Shown here: positions 1 through 7,851 of the stretch, in pieces | Numbering within the stretch: position 1 is the first letter of the stretch | Layout of the letters: every line of letters starts with the position of its first letter | Assembly: GCA_020722945.1 (NCBI GenBank) | Contig: DYJV01000087.1 | Coordinates: forward strand, 1-8,044 | Length of the DNA stretch: 8,044 nucleotides | Direction of reading: 5' to 3' | From: Candidatus Methylomirabilis sp. | GTDB taxonomy: Bacteria > DYJV01 | Program-made: the position numbers and the translations under genes | Notes under the pieces: generated by a model | What the model saw: only the letters and a program-made list of their open reading frames with translations | What the model was told of the DNA's origin: nothing | Database searches by the model: none

Positions 1-75
1 TTTTGATGACGCTATTATTATATTTTGATGACGCTATTATTATATTTTGATGACGTTTTGATGACGTCATCAAAA
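1..75. repeat. Iteron array (probable replication origin)
   Basis: The 11-bp core TTTTGATGACG occurs at 1, 23, 45 and 56, and once inverted at 65-75. Units 1-22 and 23-44 are identical and carry the same 11-bp spacer, CTATTATTATA. The third is only the core, and the fourth is fused to the inverted copy. A 22-bp period places the cores on one face of the helix, as in iterons bound by Rep_3-type initiators, and a gene of that type lies at 5210. An A+T-rich stretch follows directly. The array begins at the window edge, so more units may lie to the left. Its distance of about 5 kb from rep is unusual; elements may have been inserted between them, or the array could serve another initiator outside the window. 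Confidence 0.75.
56..75. repeat. Perfect 20-bp palindrome at the end of the iteron array
   Basis: TTTTGATGACGTCATCAAAA is two iteron cores meeting head to head and sharing CG. In iteron plasmids inverted core copies commonly act as operators bound by Rep dimers, while direct copies bind monomers. That role is an inference here, because the palindrome is not next to the rep promoter. Confidence 0.7.
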
Positions 76-130
76 CATAATAATACAGGTATAAAGAAAT
101 ATTTATAATTATAAATAAATATTTATTTAT
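76..130. other. A+T-rich palindromic segment, candidate DNA-unwinding element
   Basis: This stretch is almost all A and T. It contains two overlapping perfect palindromes, a 16-bp one at 101-116 and a 20-bp one at 111-130 (ATAAATAAAT followed by its reverse complement). Position next to iterons fits the duplex-opening region of a theta-type origin. No clear DnaA box was seen. Confidence 0.5.
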
Positions 131-450: not shown

Positions 451-630
451 AACAGAGTTAAAATAGAGTTAAATGCGTCTTTTAAATATTAGAAGTATAG
501 GACTAAGTACGCTGGGGCACAGCAGATTTTAAGCTTGTGGAGATAGTTCATTAGAGTTATCATTGAAGTAAGAAAAAGAATGCTTAGTAAACTAAGCAGA
601 AGTCACAGGGTTTGTCCCGTGGAGTGTCAC
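391..630 (+). ncRNA. Putative standalone omegaRNA (TnpB/Cas12f-type guide-RNA scaffold)
   Basis: There is no credible protein-coding ORF. From the predicted start the segment contains hairpins ACAG/CTGT (402-405 with 414-417), CAG-C/G-CTG (422-435), a perfect 8-bp stem (581-588 with 591-598), and a terminal stem CAC-A-GGG/CCC-GTG (604-610 with 616-621) ending GTGGAGTGTCAC at 630. A terminal hairpin preceded by AGAAG and followed by GTGTCAC resembles the right end of IS200/IS605-type tnpB elements, where the omegaRNA scaffold ends and the guide begins. The sequence around 385-450 also recalls Cas12f tracrRNA cores. A guide would then be 631-650, in the nrdD leader. No tnpB is present, although a stop-riddled remnant of its 3' end around 510-555 is possible. 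The family match is from memory; the repeats and folds are visible directly. Confidence 0.5.
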
Positions 631-668: not shown

Positions 669-3476
669 ATGTTAAATTTAACAACTGAACAACTTAAATC
701 ATTGGATGATTTTGTTAAAGAATATATTCAAGCAGAAAATGCCGCAATTGGTTCTCGTTATGATGCAAATGCAAATGTAATTAATAAAAATGTCATCACA
801 TTGATTGGTGAAATGGTCAAACCACTATTCATTCAATATAACCGTTATACAAGATATCAGCAAATGGTTAAAGATTTTGGCATAGAGCTGGCTGATGAAT
901 ATATAAAAGATATTGAAAATGCTCGAATTTATCAGCACGATGAAAGTCATTATTTACCATATTGCTTGAGTATTTCATTATTTCCATTTCTACAAAATGG
1001 TTCAAAATGTATAGGTGGTATCACCGAAAGGCCTAAACATTTATCATCATTTTGTGGTGGGTTGATTAATCTCATGAATCAGGTTGCAGCACAGGTTGCT
1101 GGTGCTGTAGCCATACCTTCATTATTGGTTTGTTTCGACTTTTTTTCTCGTAAGGACTATGGTGAAAATTATTTAGAAACACATGAAAATGAAATAAAAC
1201 AAGAACTACAGCATCTAATCTACTATTTAAATGAACCATGTTCCGGTCGTTCTGGACAATGTGTTCGAGCTGATACCACTCAATTGTGGACACCAAGTGG
1301 GTTTAAATATCTTCACGAATTAAAAGTTGGGGACGAGTGTTATGTATGGAAAAATGGAAAATATGAAATTGAAAAAATTAAAAAATTAAACATCTATGAT
1401 TATAATGATGAACTTTTACAATTTTCTGGTAAAAATTATCAACAAACAGTAACTCCAAATCATAGAATTGTTTATAAAAAAGATAACATAGACATTATCG
1501 AAATTACAGAAGCACATAATATGTTTGGTCATAGCAAAATTTCTATGCCAGTGTGTGCCAATATAGATCGAGAAGATTATCCAATATCTGATGATTTGTT
1601 AATATTATCAACATATGCGCTAACTTATGGTAACATTGAGGTACTAAATGACTATACTCATTATAATGCGATGTCAGCATTGACATATTATGTATCAAAA
1701 AATAGAAAATCATATCAAGCCATAATTAACTCACTAAATACACTTCAGATTACATATTCTATAAAATCTGTAAAAAAATCTATAGGGAATTATGACGATG
1801 TTGTTGCAATTTCGTTAACACCAACACAATCCAAGGAAATCTTATCCATAATAAATAATACAAAAAAACAAGTTCCAGATTTATTTTTGAAGTTATCATC
1901 ACGACAAGCAAATATAATTATTAAACATTGGAGTATGTCTGGTGGGCAAGAATTAAAAACAACTCCAAGATTATTACAATGTGACAATCATGAAATTGCT
2001 GACAAAGTTCAACAAATCTGTCTGTTGGGTGGTATGGGGAGTAGTATAATAGAACGACAGGGTATTGATCCAAAAAAGACAATCTATGTTTATATATTTT
2101 CACAAAAATTTAAACGTGTATCTGAATACAACAAAGTTTTTTATCATGGTAAAGTGTGGTGCCCTACAACAGATGCCGGTGTTGTAATTTTTAGAGAAGA
2201 AAATAAGACACCATATATATCTGGGAATTCTATATTTTGGAATGTGAGTATATTTGATAAACTCTATCTCGAAGGAATGTATGGCAATTTTGTATATCCA
2301 GCAGATTCTTCTAAAGTTAACATTGATTCTGTAATGAAACTTCAAAAATTCTTTTTAACATGGTTTAATAAAGAACGTGAAAAATCGTTATTGACATTTC
2401 CTGTTATAACGTGTGCAATGGTATATGATAAACAAAAACAGGTAATTGATAAAGAATTTAAAAAAATGGTCTGTGAAGAACTCTCTCAAGGAAATGGATT
2501 TTTTGTTTATCTTTCAGATAGTGTTGATAGCCTTTCAAGCTGTTGTAGGCTTAGAAACGAAACAAAAAATGAATTTTCGTTTACACTTGGAAATGTTGGT
2601 GAAATGACTGGTTCTGTCAATGTAATTACAATTAATATGAATAGATTTATTCAAGATACCCATAGAATTGCACAGCAGACGAATGTTAATTTTTCAAAAC
2701 TTTTAATATCAGAACTAAGAAAAATGGTTCAGAAAATACATAAATATCATGTTTCTATTCGTAAAATTCTGACATTTATGCGGGATTCTAACATGTACCC
2801 TGTACATAGCGCACATTTCATAGAAATGGAACGTCAATTTTCAACAATTGGTATTAACGGACTTGTAGAAGCAGCAGAATATCTTGGGTATGATATAACT
2901 CCAAACGATCAGTATATGAATTTCTGTGCAACTATTTTGAAAACAATTTCAGCTGAAAATAAGGCGGCGAATGAATTATATGGAATTCGTTTTAACACAG
3001 AGTTTGTACCGGGCGAAAATGCTGGTCATAAGTTAGCACAATGGGATAAACGAGATGGCTATGTTGTTCCAAGAGAATGTTATAATTCATATTTTTACAG
3101 AGTCGAAGATGATGGATTGTCTGTAATTGAAAAGGCAAATATGCACGGTAAACTTGTAACAAAGTATCTTGATGGCGGCAGCGCTGTTCATTACAACATG
3201 GATAGCTACATGACAGCAGAACAGTATTCAAAGTGGATTGATGTAAACGCATATGTTGGTGTAAACTACTTTTGCACAAATATCTTGATTACTTGTTGTG
3301 AAGAAGAAAATTGTGGTTATATTAACAAGAATACCGAATATCATTGTGTTAAATGTGGTAGTAAAAACGTTTCACATGCGACAAGAGTAATTGGATTTTT
3401 GAAAAAAATTAAAAATTTTTCCAAGGCCAGACAAGAAGAAGCTGCATTGAGATTTTACCACAAAGATAAAGTATGA
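669..3476 (+). CDS. nrdD: Anaerobic ribonucleoside-triphosphate reductase, class III, with intein
   Basis: This enzyme reduces ribonucleoside triphosphates to dNTPs using a glycyl radical and works only without oxygen. ATG at 669 is chosen because AGAAAGG (653-660) precedes it; the frame is open from a TTG at 612, but that lies inside the upstream RNA hairpin. The precursor is 935 aa. Removing the intein (residues 198-520) leaves 612 aa, close to the ~605 aa of phage T4 NrdD. Visible landmarks are the SGQ|SIFWNVSIFD junction, a Cys pair (625/626) followed by RLRNE where the thiyl-radical cysteine is expected, Cys clusters at 876-882 and 893-896 for the C-terminal zinc site, and RVIGFL with the radical glycine at 909. 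Its stop overlaps the start of the activase gene nrdG by 4 bp, implying coupled translation. Confidence 0.95.
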   Translation: MLNLTTEQLKSLDDFVKEYIQAENAAIGSRYDANANVINKNVITLIGEMVKPLFIQYNRYTRYQQMVKDFGIELADEYIKDIENARIYQHDESHYLPYCLSISLFPFLQNGSKCIGGITERPKHLSSFCGGLINLMNQVAAQVAGAVAIPSLLVCFDFFSRKDYGENYLETHENEIKQELQHLIYYLNEPCSGRSGQCVRADTTQLWTPSGFKYLHELKVGDECYVWKNGKYEIEKIKKLNIYDYNDELLQFSGKNYQQTVTPNHRIVYKKDNIDIIEITEAHNMFGHSKISMPVCANIDREDYPISDDLLILSTYALTYGNIEVLNDYTHYNAMSALTYYVSKNRKSYQAIINSLNTLQITYSIKSVKKSIGNYDDVVAISLTPTQSKEILSIINNTKKQVPDLFLKLSSRQANIIIKHWSMSGGQELKTTPRLLQCDNHEIADKVQQICLLGGMGSSIIERQGIDPKKTIYVYIFSQKFKRVSEYNKVFYHGKVWCPTTDAGVVIFREENKTPYISGNSIFWNVSIFDKLYLEGMYGNFVYPADSSKVNIDSVMKLQKFFLTWFNKEREKSLLTFPVITCAMVYDKQKQVIDKEFKKMVCEELSQGNGFFVYLSDSVDSLSSCCRLRNETKNEFSFTLGNVGEMTGSVNVITINMNRFIQDTHRIAQQTNVNFSKLLISELRKMVQKIHKYHVSIRKILTFMRDSNMYPVHSAHFIEMERQFSTIGINGLVEAAEYLGYDITPNDQYMNFCATILKTISAENKAANELYGIRFNTEFVPGENAGHKLAQWDKRDGYVVPRECYNSYFYRVEDDGLSVIEKANMHGKLVTKYLDGGSAVHYNMDSYMTAEQYSKWIDVNAYVGVNYFCTNILITCCEEENCGYINKNTEYHCVKCGSKNVSHATRVIGFLKKIKNFSKARQEEAALRFYHKDKV
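1260..2228 (+). other. Intein in NrdD (323 aa) with a degenerate LAGLIDADG domain
   Basis: The intein begins with Cys1 (codon 1260) in CVRADTTQLWTPSGFKYL, a standard block A followed by LKVGDECYV. Block B is TVTPNHRIV, with the TxxH residues. The C-terminal blocks are GKVWCPTTDAGVVIF and NKTPYISGN, ending in Asn (2226-2228), with Ser as the +1 extein residue. All splicing residues are therefore present except that the penultimate residue is Gly rather than the usual His, a known variant. The central ~200 aa resembles a DOD-type homing endonuclease, but the two helices (near ILSTYALTYGN and IIKHWSMSGG) lack the aspartates expected before the final glycine. Splicing looks possible and nuclease activity unlikely. 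It sits in the conserved Q|S motif of NrdD. Confidence 0.9.
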
Positions 3477-3913: not shown

Positions 3914-5053
3914 ATGATTGACATAAATTCAAATTGCTGCTATCAATATGATGAAAATTTTTTTAATGAAATTGATACTGAGTTTAAAGCATGGTTTTTA
4001 GGTTGGATATTAAGTAATGGTTTTATTGAAAAAAATGATTCTATAAAAATACAAATACATGCTAAAGATATTAATGTATTAAAACTAATAAAAAATGTAA
4101 TTCGTAAAAATTTAAAAATAAATAAAACAAAAAATAAAAATATATTATCTCTTAAAATACATTCTATTAATATAGTTAACGATATTAAAAAAATGTTAAA
4201 CATAGAAGATAATGAATACAAATTATCATTAAACAATAATATAAATTTTGAACATATACCAAATGAATTTAAATATGATTTTATCAGAGGGTATTTTGAA
4301 GGAAATGGTACAATCAAAAATACATTTAATAATAAAAATGTACAATTGAGTTGTTCCATAATTAGTATAAATTCAAATATATTAAACATAATAAAATCAT
4401 TTATAAAAATACCATCATCTATTATTACTTATCAAAAAAATAATAAATCTTATTATATGTTAGAATATAAATCAACAAATGTTATAGATTTTCTTGGCAG
4501 ACTGTATGATAAAAATCCAACTTATTTATTACAGCGAAAAAGAGAACAATATTTGGATATTTCAAATTGGAAGTATAGAATACCAGATAAAATTAAAACA
4601 ATAGATTATATAAAAGTTCACAAAACTAGATCAGATGCAATAATTCCATCCAAAGCAAATGCTAGTGATAGTGGTTATGATTTAACCATAATTGAATTAA
4701 TTAAACAATGTGGTGATATGTTATTATTTGATACTGGTATTGCACTTGAACCACCTATAGGATATTATATAGATGTTGTTCCAAGAAGCTCTATATCTAA
4801 AACAGGTTATATTATGTTAAATAGTATTGGAATTATAGATCAAAGTTATAGAGGCTCAATTAAAATAGCTTTGACAAAAATAGATAAAACTAAACCAGAT
4901 TTAATACTACCTGTCAAAATTGCACAAATTATTATAAGACCATTTTTTAATCTACCGATAATAGAATCCCAATTATCAGATACCAGTAGAAATGATGGTG
5001 GTTTTGGTAGTACAAGTGACTACTCCCCACGGCTAAAGCCGGGTGGCTTCTAA
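3914..5053 (+). CDS. dut: LAGLIDADG-domain/dUTPase fusion protein
   Basis: The C-terminal half hydrolyses dUTP to dUMP and pyrophosphate. All five trimeric dUTPase motifs are present: ASDSGYDL (250-257), PRSS (290-293), GIIDQSYRG (306-314, with the catalytic Asp309), KIAQ (335-338) and RNDGGFGST (359-367). Residues 1 to about 224 form a LAGLIDADG-type domain: FLGWILSNG (28-36), IRGYFEGNG (124-132) and a closing LYDKNPTYLLQRKREQY. Asn replaces the catalytic Asp in both motifs (Asn35, Asn131), so the domain probably cannot cut DNA, though it might still bind it. The coding sequence of the first half is extremely A-rich. The start lies 9 nt after nrdG with no clear Shine-Dalgarno, suggesting coupling. 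After GGFGST the reading frame enters the downstream RNA element and gains a foreign 12-residue tail, SDYSPRLKPGGF. Confidence 0.9.
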   Translation: MIDINSNCCYQYDENFFNEIDTEFKAWFLGWILSNGFIEKNDSIKIQIHAKDINVLKLIKNVIRKNLKINKTKNKNILSLKIHSINIVNDIKKMLNIEDNEYKLSLNNNINFEHIPNEFKYDFIRGYFEGNGTIKNTFNNKNVQLSCSIISINSNILNIIKSFIKIPSSIITYQKNNKSYYMLEYKSTNVIDFLGRLYDKNPTYLLQRKREQYLDISNWKYRIPDKIKTIDYIKVHKTRSDAIIPSKANASDSGYDLTIIELIKQCGDMLLFDTGIALEPPIGYYIDVVPRSSISKTGYIMLNSIGIIDQSYRGSIKIALTKIDKTKPDLILPVKIAQIIIRPFFNLPIIESQLSDTSRNDGGFGSTSDYSPRLKPGGF

Positions 5054-5147
5054 AAGACGGTGACCCGCCCTCAGGCTTTGTAGTCCCAAAGCCAAAAATA
5101 CCGAAAACGAAATGACATTCCACAAGGCTTGTCCTGTGGAATGTCAC
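5018..5147 (+). ncRNA. Putative mini-element with IscB/HEARO-like omegaRNA, lacking iscB
   Basis: This compact G+C-richer block starts inside the dut 3' end. Visible pairings are GACTAC (5018-5023) with GTAGTC (5080-5085); CCAC-GGC (5027-5033) with GCC (5038-5040) and GTGG (5043-5046); GGGTGG (5041-5046) with CCGCCC (5065-5070), one G-U; and GGCTTT (5074-5079) with AAAGCC (5088-5093). Several are mutually nested as pseudoknots. The AGCCGGGTGGCTTCT...AAGACGGTGACCCGCCC style of sequence matches my recollection of HEARO RNA, the omegaRNA of IscB. A long 3' hairpin (5114-5123 with 5136-5145, plus an inner AGG/CCT stem) ends GTGGAATGTCAC, like the nrdD-side element. No iscB or transposase gene is present. 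The element could be a decayed or trans-mobilised IS200/IS605-superfamily derivative. Confidence 0.5.
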
Positions 5148-5209
5148 TGTATGATATCTTTCTAGCGTTCTTTCAACTTGGACTGAAAAAAACGAAGGTA
5201 TAAAAATAT

Positions 5210-5806
5210 ATGAAATTAAATTTCGGGATCAGTGTGAATAATAGTTTTTTTAAACAAAGCTATCACCTGACATTAACCCAGAAAAAAATACTATATTTTT
5301 TACTGTCCAAAAAACCAAAAAATGAATTAGCCTATTGGTGTGATTTGTCAGAATTTTATAAAAATAAAAAATCATTAAACAATATAATTACACGTAAAAC
5401 ACAAATTCAATTCAATTTCAATGGAACTATAGTATACAATCTATTAGAAAAACATAGATATAAAGTTTACGTGGAATTTAAAGAAGAATTTATTGATTAT
5501 ATTTTTGATTATAACAGAGGATTCACCAGATTAAAATTGAACGATATTTTAAATATCAAAAGTCTGGCAATATTAAATCTGTATGAATTATTGTGCCAGT
5601 GGAGGAAAATAGGTATTATTACAATAAATATAAATATATTAAAGCAGATAACAATAACTAATAAATATAACAATTACAACTTTATGATGATGTTTAGACA
5701 ATGGTATGTAAAATTAAAAGAACTGATAGATTTTGAGTATAAAGTTAATAACTACGACGGAACAAAGCTGATAAAAAGCATTACATTCACAATAAATAAG
5801 GGATAA
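5210..5806 (+). CDS. rep: Replication initiator protein, Rep_3/RepB-like, short form
   Basis: The protein likely binds the iterons and opens the origin. At 198 aa it is shorter than most Rep_3 initiators (about 250-320 aa), but the conserved framework is visible: SYHLTLTQKKILYFLLSK (winged-helix 1 start), YNRGFTRLKLNDIL then KSLAILNLYELLCQWRKIG (the family's 'ftry.l.~~~lks..sirLYell' region), and a second winged-helix ending FRQWYVKLKELIDFEYKV then KSITFTINKG. The shortening appears to lie in the middle of the first winged helix. The start is supported by GAAGG at 5194-5198. The upstream region is the RNA element's 3' flank, so rep may be transcribed from that element or from the nrd operon. 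No iterons lie immediately upstream, which is odd for an autoregulated Rep. Confidence 0.75.
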   Translation: MKLNFGISVNNSFFKQSYHLTLTQKKILYFLLSKKPKNELAYWCDLSEFYKNKKSLNNIITRKTQIQFNFNGTIVYNLLEKHRYKVYVEFKEEFIDYIFDYNRGFTRLKLNDILNIKSLAILNLYELLCQWRKIGIITININILKQITITNKYNNYNFMMMFRQWYVKLKELIDFEYKVNNYDGTKLIKSITFTINKG

Positions 5807-6591: not shown

Positions 6592-7092
6592 ATGAAAAAA
6601 AAATACCAAAAAAGATCAAGAGTATCTTATGTAAAAAGATATTGTTTGTATTGTGGTAAGGAAATACCAAAACGTGTATGTTTGAAGTTTTACTATCTAT
6701 TAGAATATTGTTCAAGAAAATGCAAAACAAGTGCTACTAAAATAGAAAAAGTTTGTGACTGTTGTAGTTCAAAGTTTAATGTTTCACCACGTAAAAAAGA
6801 TGAAACAAAGTGTCCTACTTGTAGAAAGTATATAAAGAAAGGTGCAAAACCATGTGCTTATTGTAATAAATTAATGTTTTACTATAGTCCATTGGTATTT
6901 GGTAATAAAGAATACTGTTGTATATCATGTATGGTAAATGATCTGGGTAATAAGATAAGATATTGTGTAAAATGTAAATATCCATTGTCATGTTCAAATG
7001 GTTCTATGGATTATTATCACAAAAGAACCACACATAAAAATTGTAAACTTTTTAAACATTATATAGATAATATGAAAACATATGACATATGA
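6592..7092 (+). CDS. Cys-rich putative zinc-binding protein with several CxxC clusters
   Basis: This basic protein of 166 aa has at least four metal-binding-type clusters: CLYCGK with CSRKC; CDCCSSKF with CPTCRK; CAYCNK with CCISC; and CVKCKYPLSC with a final HKNC. The pattern looks like consecutive treble-clef or zinc-ribbon units, as in phage-encoded HNH-type or DNA/RNA-binding proteins, but I see no convincing HNH catalytic residues. ATG at 6592 is preferred, one base after the previous stop and with weak GGATG upstream; an in-frame ATG at 6580 overlapping the previous gene is the alternative and adds four residues. Nucleic-acid binding is inferred only from the Cys clusters and the high Lys/Arg content. 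Confidence 0.8.
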   Translation: MKKKYQKRSRVSYVKRYCLYCGKEIPKRVCLKFYYLLEYCSRKCKTSATKIEKVCDCCSSKFNVSPRKKDETKCPTCRKYIKKGAKPCAYCNKLMFYYSPLVFGNKEYCCISCMVNDLGNKIRYCVKCKYPLSCSNGSMDYYHKRTTHKNCKLFKHYIDNMKTYDI

Positions 7093-7190
7093 AATCCAGA
7101 TAAATAATTTATACCAACAATTATGTCAATTAATAAGTTAATAACCGATAACACTTGTTAACAGAAATGAATCGGAGAAAAAAAATAAAC

Positions 7191-7448
7191 ATGAATAATT
7201 TTTCATTTAAAGAAGCAGAAAAATCGCCACATGATCATTTATCTAAGTTACAGATTGAAATATCAAAAGTCATCTATACAAAGATGAAAGAAATTGGATG
7301 GAGTAAAGCAGAATTGGCAAGAAAGTTAAAAGTCAGTAGACAATTAATACACAAACTGTTAAAATGTGACCAGAATATCACTTTGTTAACCCTAGTTAAA
7401 ATATCTATGGCTCTTAATTTGACATTTGAGATAAAATTTAATGAGTAA
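7191..7448 (+). CDS. HTH transcriptional regulator, Cro/C1 (XRE) family, HigA-like
   Basis: The 85-aa protein carries a standard XRE helix-turn-helix: WSKAELARKLKVSRQLIHKLL followed by NITLLTLVKISMALNL (about residues 39-79), which gives sequence-specific DNA binding as a dimer. Length and the short tail after the HTH resemble HigA-type antitoxins or small phage repressors. ATG at 7191 is preferred for the CGGAGAAA at 7173-7180 (spacing on the long side); in-frame starts at 7155 (TTG) and 7167 lack ribosome sites. The next gene overlaps its stop by 8 bp. No toxin of the HigB/RelE fold is recognisable next to it, so it may regulate the small-gene cluster or copy number. Confidence 0.85.
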   Translation: MNNFSFKEAEKSPHDHLSKLQIEISKVIYTKMKEIGWSKAELARKLKVSRQLIHKLLKCDQNITLLTLVKISMALNLTFEIKFNE

Positions 7449-7764: not shown

Positions 7765-7851
7765 AAATTAAATTGGTGTATATTGATAATAGCTTCGTGC
7801 TACAGATGTTCCGCTGTTAGTCAGTTTATATACTGCGGTAAGTCGGTAAAA
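7756..7851 (+). repeat. Direct repeat copy 2 (5' module of the nrdD-side RNA element, truncated)
   Basis: This matches 351-450 apart from five substitutions and a missing AAATT. The T7826-A7832 pair replaces C426-G432 of copy 1, preserving the stem. Similarity stops sharply after GTCGGTAAAA; the later hairpins and the 3' end of the element are absent. The promoter of copy 1 is degraded here (CTGAAA, spacing 12 bp), so this copy is probably not expressed alone. The two direct repeats bracket 7.4 kb including the nrd operon and rep, and could recombine to excise that block. Confidence 0.85.

Follow-up and report, generated by a model that had tools for sequence, protein, structure and literature searches.

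The structured block behind the dut gene of this contig is a remnant of a known kind, the decayed right end of an IS200/IS605 tnpB element, found here amid an unusual junction pattern. The window, meaning the whole stretch of DNA analysed, is a complete contig of 8,044 bases (C166) from a 2.5-Mb assembly, and its genes include those for NrdD (an anaerobic ribonucleotide reductase, here with a large insert), NrdG and a Rep_3-type initiator, as well as an ORF joining LAGLIDADG and dUTPase domains. On its minus strand, positions 5101-5016 hold the last ~22 codons and the right end (RE) of an IS200/IS605 tnpB. With high probability, an IS200/IS605 tnpB element inserted antisense in the end of dut, carried out guided cutting while complete, and is now a relic of which most has been lost. 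An earlier note had taken the block for an IscB-type omegaRNA guided by dut; both the RNA class and the strand of that assignment proved wrong.

The tnpB tail and right end on the minus strand

As the earlier note had seen, a G+C-rich block starts directly behind the GGFGST codons (4997-5014) of dUTPase motif V, its edge lying at 5015/5016 and not at 5017/5018, where it had been placed. The final 12 codons and the stop of the dUTPase ORF derive from the inserted block and, among the public matches listed, nearly all lose dUTPase homology at residue 367-369, which is the block edge. The plus-strand fold of 5015-5160 is beyond chance (z = -3.2), and the minus-strand fold of 5016-5160 reaches z = -5.9 with four consecutive hairpins, which makes the latter strand the better RNA of the two. 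Nor is the stretch 4999-5147 one element, as had been supposed: it is a composite of the minus-strand tnpB tail and right end, 5101-5016, and a plus-strand right-end-like hairpin, 5109-5147 (Table 1).

Table 1. Features at the dut block and at related right ends (positions in the window unless a contig is named)
Feature	Position	Strand	Basis
tnpB tail and right end, family B, ahead of nrdD	458..630	+	Alignment with C29 and C79
LAGLIDADG-dUTPase ORF	3914..5053	+	Pfam dUTPase 3e-14 at aa 242-367; LAGLIDADG_3 match
Would-be TnpB guide, 5'-TTGTACTACCAAAACCACCA	4996..5015	-	Directly 3' of right end; predicted by the rules for TnpB (PMC8612924)
Right cleavage tetranucleotide TCAC	5016..5019	-	Sequence; placed as CR of IS608 (TCAA; PMC5934647)
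Subterminal right-end hairpin, loop TTTA	5025..5046	-	23-24-base end identical to tnpB-linked ends
tnpB C-terminal tail, VFLALGLQSLRAGHRLLEATRL and stop	5033..5101	-	Frame and position match ...ILALGLQSLGFSPRSPRL and stop of the L073 TnpB
GAAG at hairpin 5' base, right guide tetranucleotide (GAAT in IS608)	5047..5050	-	Sequence
Second scaffold hairpin	5052..5072	-	Fold; consensus (weak covariation; exceeds relatives' length)
reRNA scaffold hairpin, GGCTTTG-GGACTA-CAAAGCC	5074..5093	-	7/7 pairs compensatory, 100% paired in 6 sequences
Second right-end-like hairpin, GAAATGACATTCCACAAGGCTTGTCCTGTGGAATGTCAC	5109..5147	+	Resembles C79 right end B; pattern search
60-bp piece of a different gene of this phage	5148..5207	+	93% identical to C79 15680-15621
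Right ends with directly adjoining gene copies	C79 4797; C79 6842; C29 30669; window 5147		

The tnpB C-terminal frame, ...LALGLQSL...RL followed by a stop, runs into the right end. The last 24 bases of this end, GCTTTAGCCGTGGGGAGTAGTCAC, have two exact matches in ~85,000 genomes, and a 23-base version has four in IMG/VR. All six were examined, and in four of them (L070, L072, L073, L075) the matching end closes a TnpB frame of the same orientation, for example ...DRDENAAINILALGLQSLGFSPRSPRL and stop; tnpB-linked ends of 23-24 bases thus occur in other phages and bacteria. The 19-base core of the hairpin was also tried as a marker of tnpB and was rejected, as many of its viral copies have no detectable tnpB nearby and the core is therefore not diagnostic alone.

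The scaffold provides a second line of evidence. The window and every match except L071 (five of six) have a stem with a GGRCTA loop; its letters vary while its pairing is perfect, and sliding the partner column by one abolishes the covariation. The alignment has only six rows, some of them related, so its shuffle counts should not be read as probabilities, but the slide control gives a clear result. A covariance model of this six-sequence alignment, which includes the window, gives window 5016-5093 a score of 75 bits, and L103, a locus outside the model with 389 aligned TnpB residues upstream (tblastn), scores 89 bits. The right-end hairpin of the window has one base more than the family (plus-strand T5044) and the second scaffold hairpin is enlarged, which may reflect decay or normal variation. 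A pattern search for the window's own scaffold sequence gave no matches, and nothing was found in the E. coli genomes searched.

The architecture resembles that of the IS200/IS605 elements encoding ISDra2 TnpB and of the IS608 ends: the 3' coding end of tnpB overlaps a hairpin scaffold, the subterminal hairpin has a TTTA loop, guide and cleavage tetranucleotides are present, the would-be 3' guide derives from the flank, and the target would be TTAC as in IS608. In IS608 the guide tetranucleotide is GAAT, the cleavage site TCAA and the target TTAC (PMC5934647), whereas the dut remnant has GAAG and TCAC. It further differs from these elements in consisting of the 3' end only, without tnpB, left end or tnpA.

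That the structures behind dut are hairpins or terminators of an ordinary kind, unrelated to tnpB, is very unlikely. The terminator-like character of 5111-5148 and the many viral 19-base cores lacking a detectable tnpB close by would suit such an origin, but the 23-24-base end, the reading frame, the covariation of the scaffold and the TTAC logic (see below) all fit tnpB, and for 5016-5101 it is already contradicted. As to the hairpin at 5109-5147, its minus strand forms a terminator-like stem with a T-rich tail (hairpin 5148-5111 in the terminator scan), and it is adjoined by the 60-bp gene piece, which begins exactly at the right-end boundary. A left-end role for this hairpin, within the same element, was considered and rejected: its outer border shows no TTAC, and homology of the flank to a phage gene begins precisely at that border, a situation also seen behind other right ends.

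IS200/IS605 ends are common to the IscB and TnpB nuclease classes, and they speak in favour of an omegaRNA with a 5' guide from dut, as does the direct contact of the structured block with motif V. We nevertheless give that assignment almost no credence. The Rfam HEARO model (RF02033) matches nothing in the genome, the window or the block by itself; no RRXRR domain was found in the genome and no such ORF in the window. IscB/HEARO RNAs occupy the 5' UTR of their nuclease gene (PMC9755519), and behind the block there is none. The other strand folds more strongly and carries the tnpB reading frame, the end motifs are oriented as a minus-strand right end, and covariation and tnpB linkage on the minus strand contradict it as well. 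Omega RNAs of the IscB/HEARO type likewise take their guide from the flank and belong to a relative of IS200/IS605, but they carry it at their 5' side and lie 5' of iscB, whereas the RNA behind dut runs the opposite way and ends in the flank. Apart from correcting an attractive label, the case illustrates that IscB and TnpB ends can be distinguished by strand, reading frame, covariation and target tetranucleotide.

The would-be guide and the proposed insertion site in dut

TnpB uses as guide ~16 nt beyond the right end and needs a target-adjacent motif equal to the insertion site (PMC8612924). By these rules the guide at dut would start TTGTACTACCAAAACC... and be antisense to motif V (GGFGST). 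The idea that motif V supplies the guide thus survives in its flank-derived geometry and fails in RNA class and strand, the guide being that of a TnpB, at the 3' side and on the minus strand. The target had also been described as one that dut genes can hardly change, but motif V is conserved as protein and not as DNA. The exact 19-base target occurs in 14 stretches in 2.9 million viral contigs, of which three are dut by translation, and none of these three has a neighbouring TTAC.

An allele lacking the element is found in L154, a 120-kb phage that shares the gene order HD, nrdD, nrdG, dut with the window (nrdD 84% identical), and in which nrdD is uninterrupted and dut has neither the LAGLIDADG domain nor the block. 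Its dut reads ...AGTACTG/GTAAATGA, with a minus-strand TTAC exactly at the point homologous to the insertion in the window, in a gene only 33% identical to the window dut, where GTAA could arise by chance from the Gly-Lys-stop end. Empty and occupied alleles had been looked for, and an empty, syntenic dut with TTAC at the homologous point does exist; the expectation that empty alleles keep the DNA of 4999-5017 is not borne out, as the dut ends of the related phage and of the host differ in DNA. Homing on a wide scale is disfavoured by the scarcity of exact 19-base targets in viruses, none of which adjoins TTAC where it is dut, and by the host dut, which has a different target sequence and no TTAC motif. 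TTAC was absent from the dut ends looked at in the host, L058, L066 and L069. Contig C79 carries a second copy of the dut-block right end, which has the flank AATAGATGGCCCTG and is followed by a 33-bp gene copy; in the intact gene, ~500 bp away, the sequence is TTTTAC/AACGGATGGCCCTG, with TTAC directly before the matching stretch. By eye, the family-B ends show no consistent target motif, the matching genes being preceded by TTAT, CTAT and ATTC. No close dut relatives were confirmed in the viral contigs, and a pattern search for the dut-block right end beside any dut motif V gave no matches, and therefore no sign of dut as a recurrent target.

From these data a history can be proposed. A tnpB element of the IS200/IS605 family would have entered the final codons of dut in antisense orientation, using a minus-strand TTAC as target. 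While complete, its TnpB, together with a reRNA whose 3' guide is the reverse complement of 4996-5015, would have cut dut genes lacking the element, and this cutting may have led to its retention, or to a homing-like spread among co-infecting phages. At dut only the right end would remain, together with the reRNA scaffold hairpins and ~22 codons of TnpB. No left end of the element was recognised, so that insertion as a complete element is something we infer, together with past cutting and homing and present inactivity. A parallel is offered by free-standing homing endonuclease genes, by inteins and by TnpB gene drives (PMC11870625), in that cutting of element-free copies would favour spread; the window too has an intein-like insert in nrdD and a LAGLIDADG domain in dut. 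The dut block differs from them in that no active nuclease was found for it and its homing is deduced. If this history is true, TnpB elements settle in phage genes of nucleotide metabolism, beside inteins and LAGLIDADG genes, and phage tnpB elements decay to RNA-sized tails.

tnpB tails and copied gene pieces in the phage contigs

C79 and C29 share an identical 55-base overlap, and as far as nrdD the gene order of C29 follows that of L154; C166, C29 and C79 are therefore regarded as one phage or close strains, to which C95 probably belongs as well. C79 carries at least 7 tnpB tails of several families, each comprising about the last 15-35 codons, and no tnpB. The tails at 757-909, 4483-4635, 6692-6842, 7041-7241, 9650-9773, 12776-12976 and 13828-13923 of C79 in many cases lie directly before phage genes, some extending into the ribosome-binding region. 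In L154, a TnpB frame of 377 residues closely precedes a gene, and in C79 the homologue of that gene follows a tnpB tail. The tail ahead of nrdD in the window is 94-95% identical to C29 30497-30671 and C79 6692-6842.

In this genome the element at dut is most likely a relic. A profile search for a tnpB core in the assembly gave no match to PF01385 and fragments only of PF07282, no left end was recognised, and the terminator-like hairpin 5148-5111 precedes the remnant on the minus strand; for these reasons a relic is favoured. The search of the genome revealed neither a tnpB nor an iscB gene that could employ the guide, and the one Y1-type match above the cut-off lies on contig C152, unlinked to the block. 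The main rival to a relic, though an improbable one, is a standalone reRNA gene, for which the tnpB tail would have been kept as the source of a guide RNA and TnpB supplied in trans by a related phage co-infecting the cell, by a helper element or by the host. Several phage tails are cut at a similar place (around DRDxNGARN/INI), each retaining the scaffold region, the scaffold stem of the window is intact, and related phages encode TnpB, all of which would agree with such a gene; the assembly without a TnpB core, the terminator-like hairpin that closely precedes the scaffold on the minus strand, and a promoter scan no better than chance argue against it. Less probable again is a dispersed library of tnpB-less reRNA guides (from dut, HTH and methyltransferase genes, among others) that would act in trans, with TnpB supplied by the host or a related phage, to cut the alleles of rival phages and so serve in competition between phages.

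Besides the lack of tnpB, several of the right ends show a peculiar type of junction. The search for it covered the fetched contigs and their family-A and family-B right ends (n=6), and at four of these six ends a copy of another gene of this phage (32-136 bp, 90-94% identity) follows the cleavage point at a distance of at most 3 bases; the ends at dut and before nrdD have no such copy. At a random site the probability of such a junction is 0.0065, which gives P about 3e-8, a value to be taken as a guide and not as a clean test, since the six ends and the 3-base tolerance were fixed after some junctions had been seen, a degenerate copy near C79:700 was excluded and contig-end repeats were removed by hand. 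The pattern could possibly result from recombination of interrupted alleles of related phages, or from selection keeping guide and scaffold together. The repeated junction of right end and copied gene piece is a testable trace of recombination between elements and phage genes.

Other features of the window

Several further features of the contig are worth recording. The insert in NrdD (window 1260-2228) is intein-like, with Cys as its first residue and Gly-Asn/Ser at its end, and is missing from the L154 nrdD. The LAGLIDADG domain (window 3914-4560) is joined in frame to the dUTPase N-terminus; L155 has a related free-standing gene, and the L154 dut is without the domain. Direct repeats of 87 bp, 95% identical, at 365-451 and 7765-7851 flank most of the contig. 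Finally, tandem TTTTGATGACG repeats and the Rep_3-type initiator (window 1-85 and 5210-5806) stand beside phage genes, and C166 could perhaps be a phage-plasmid.
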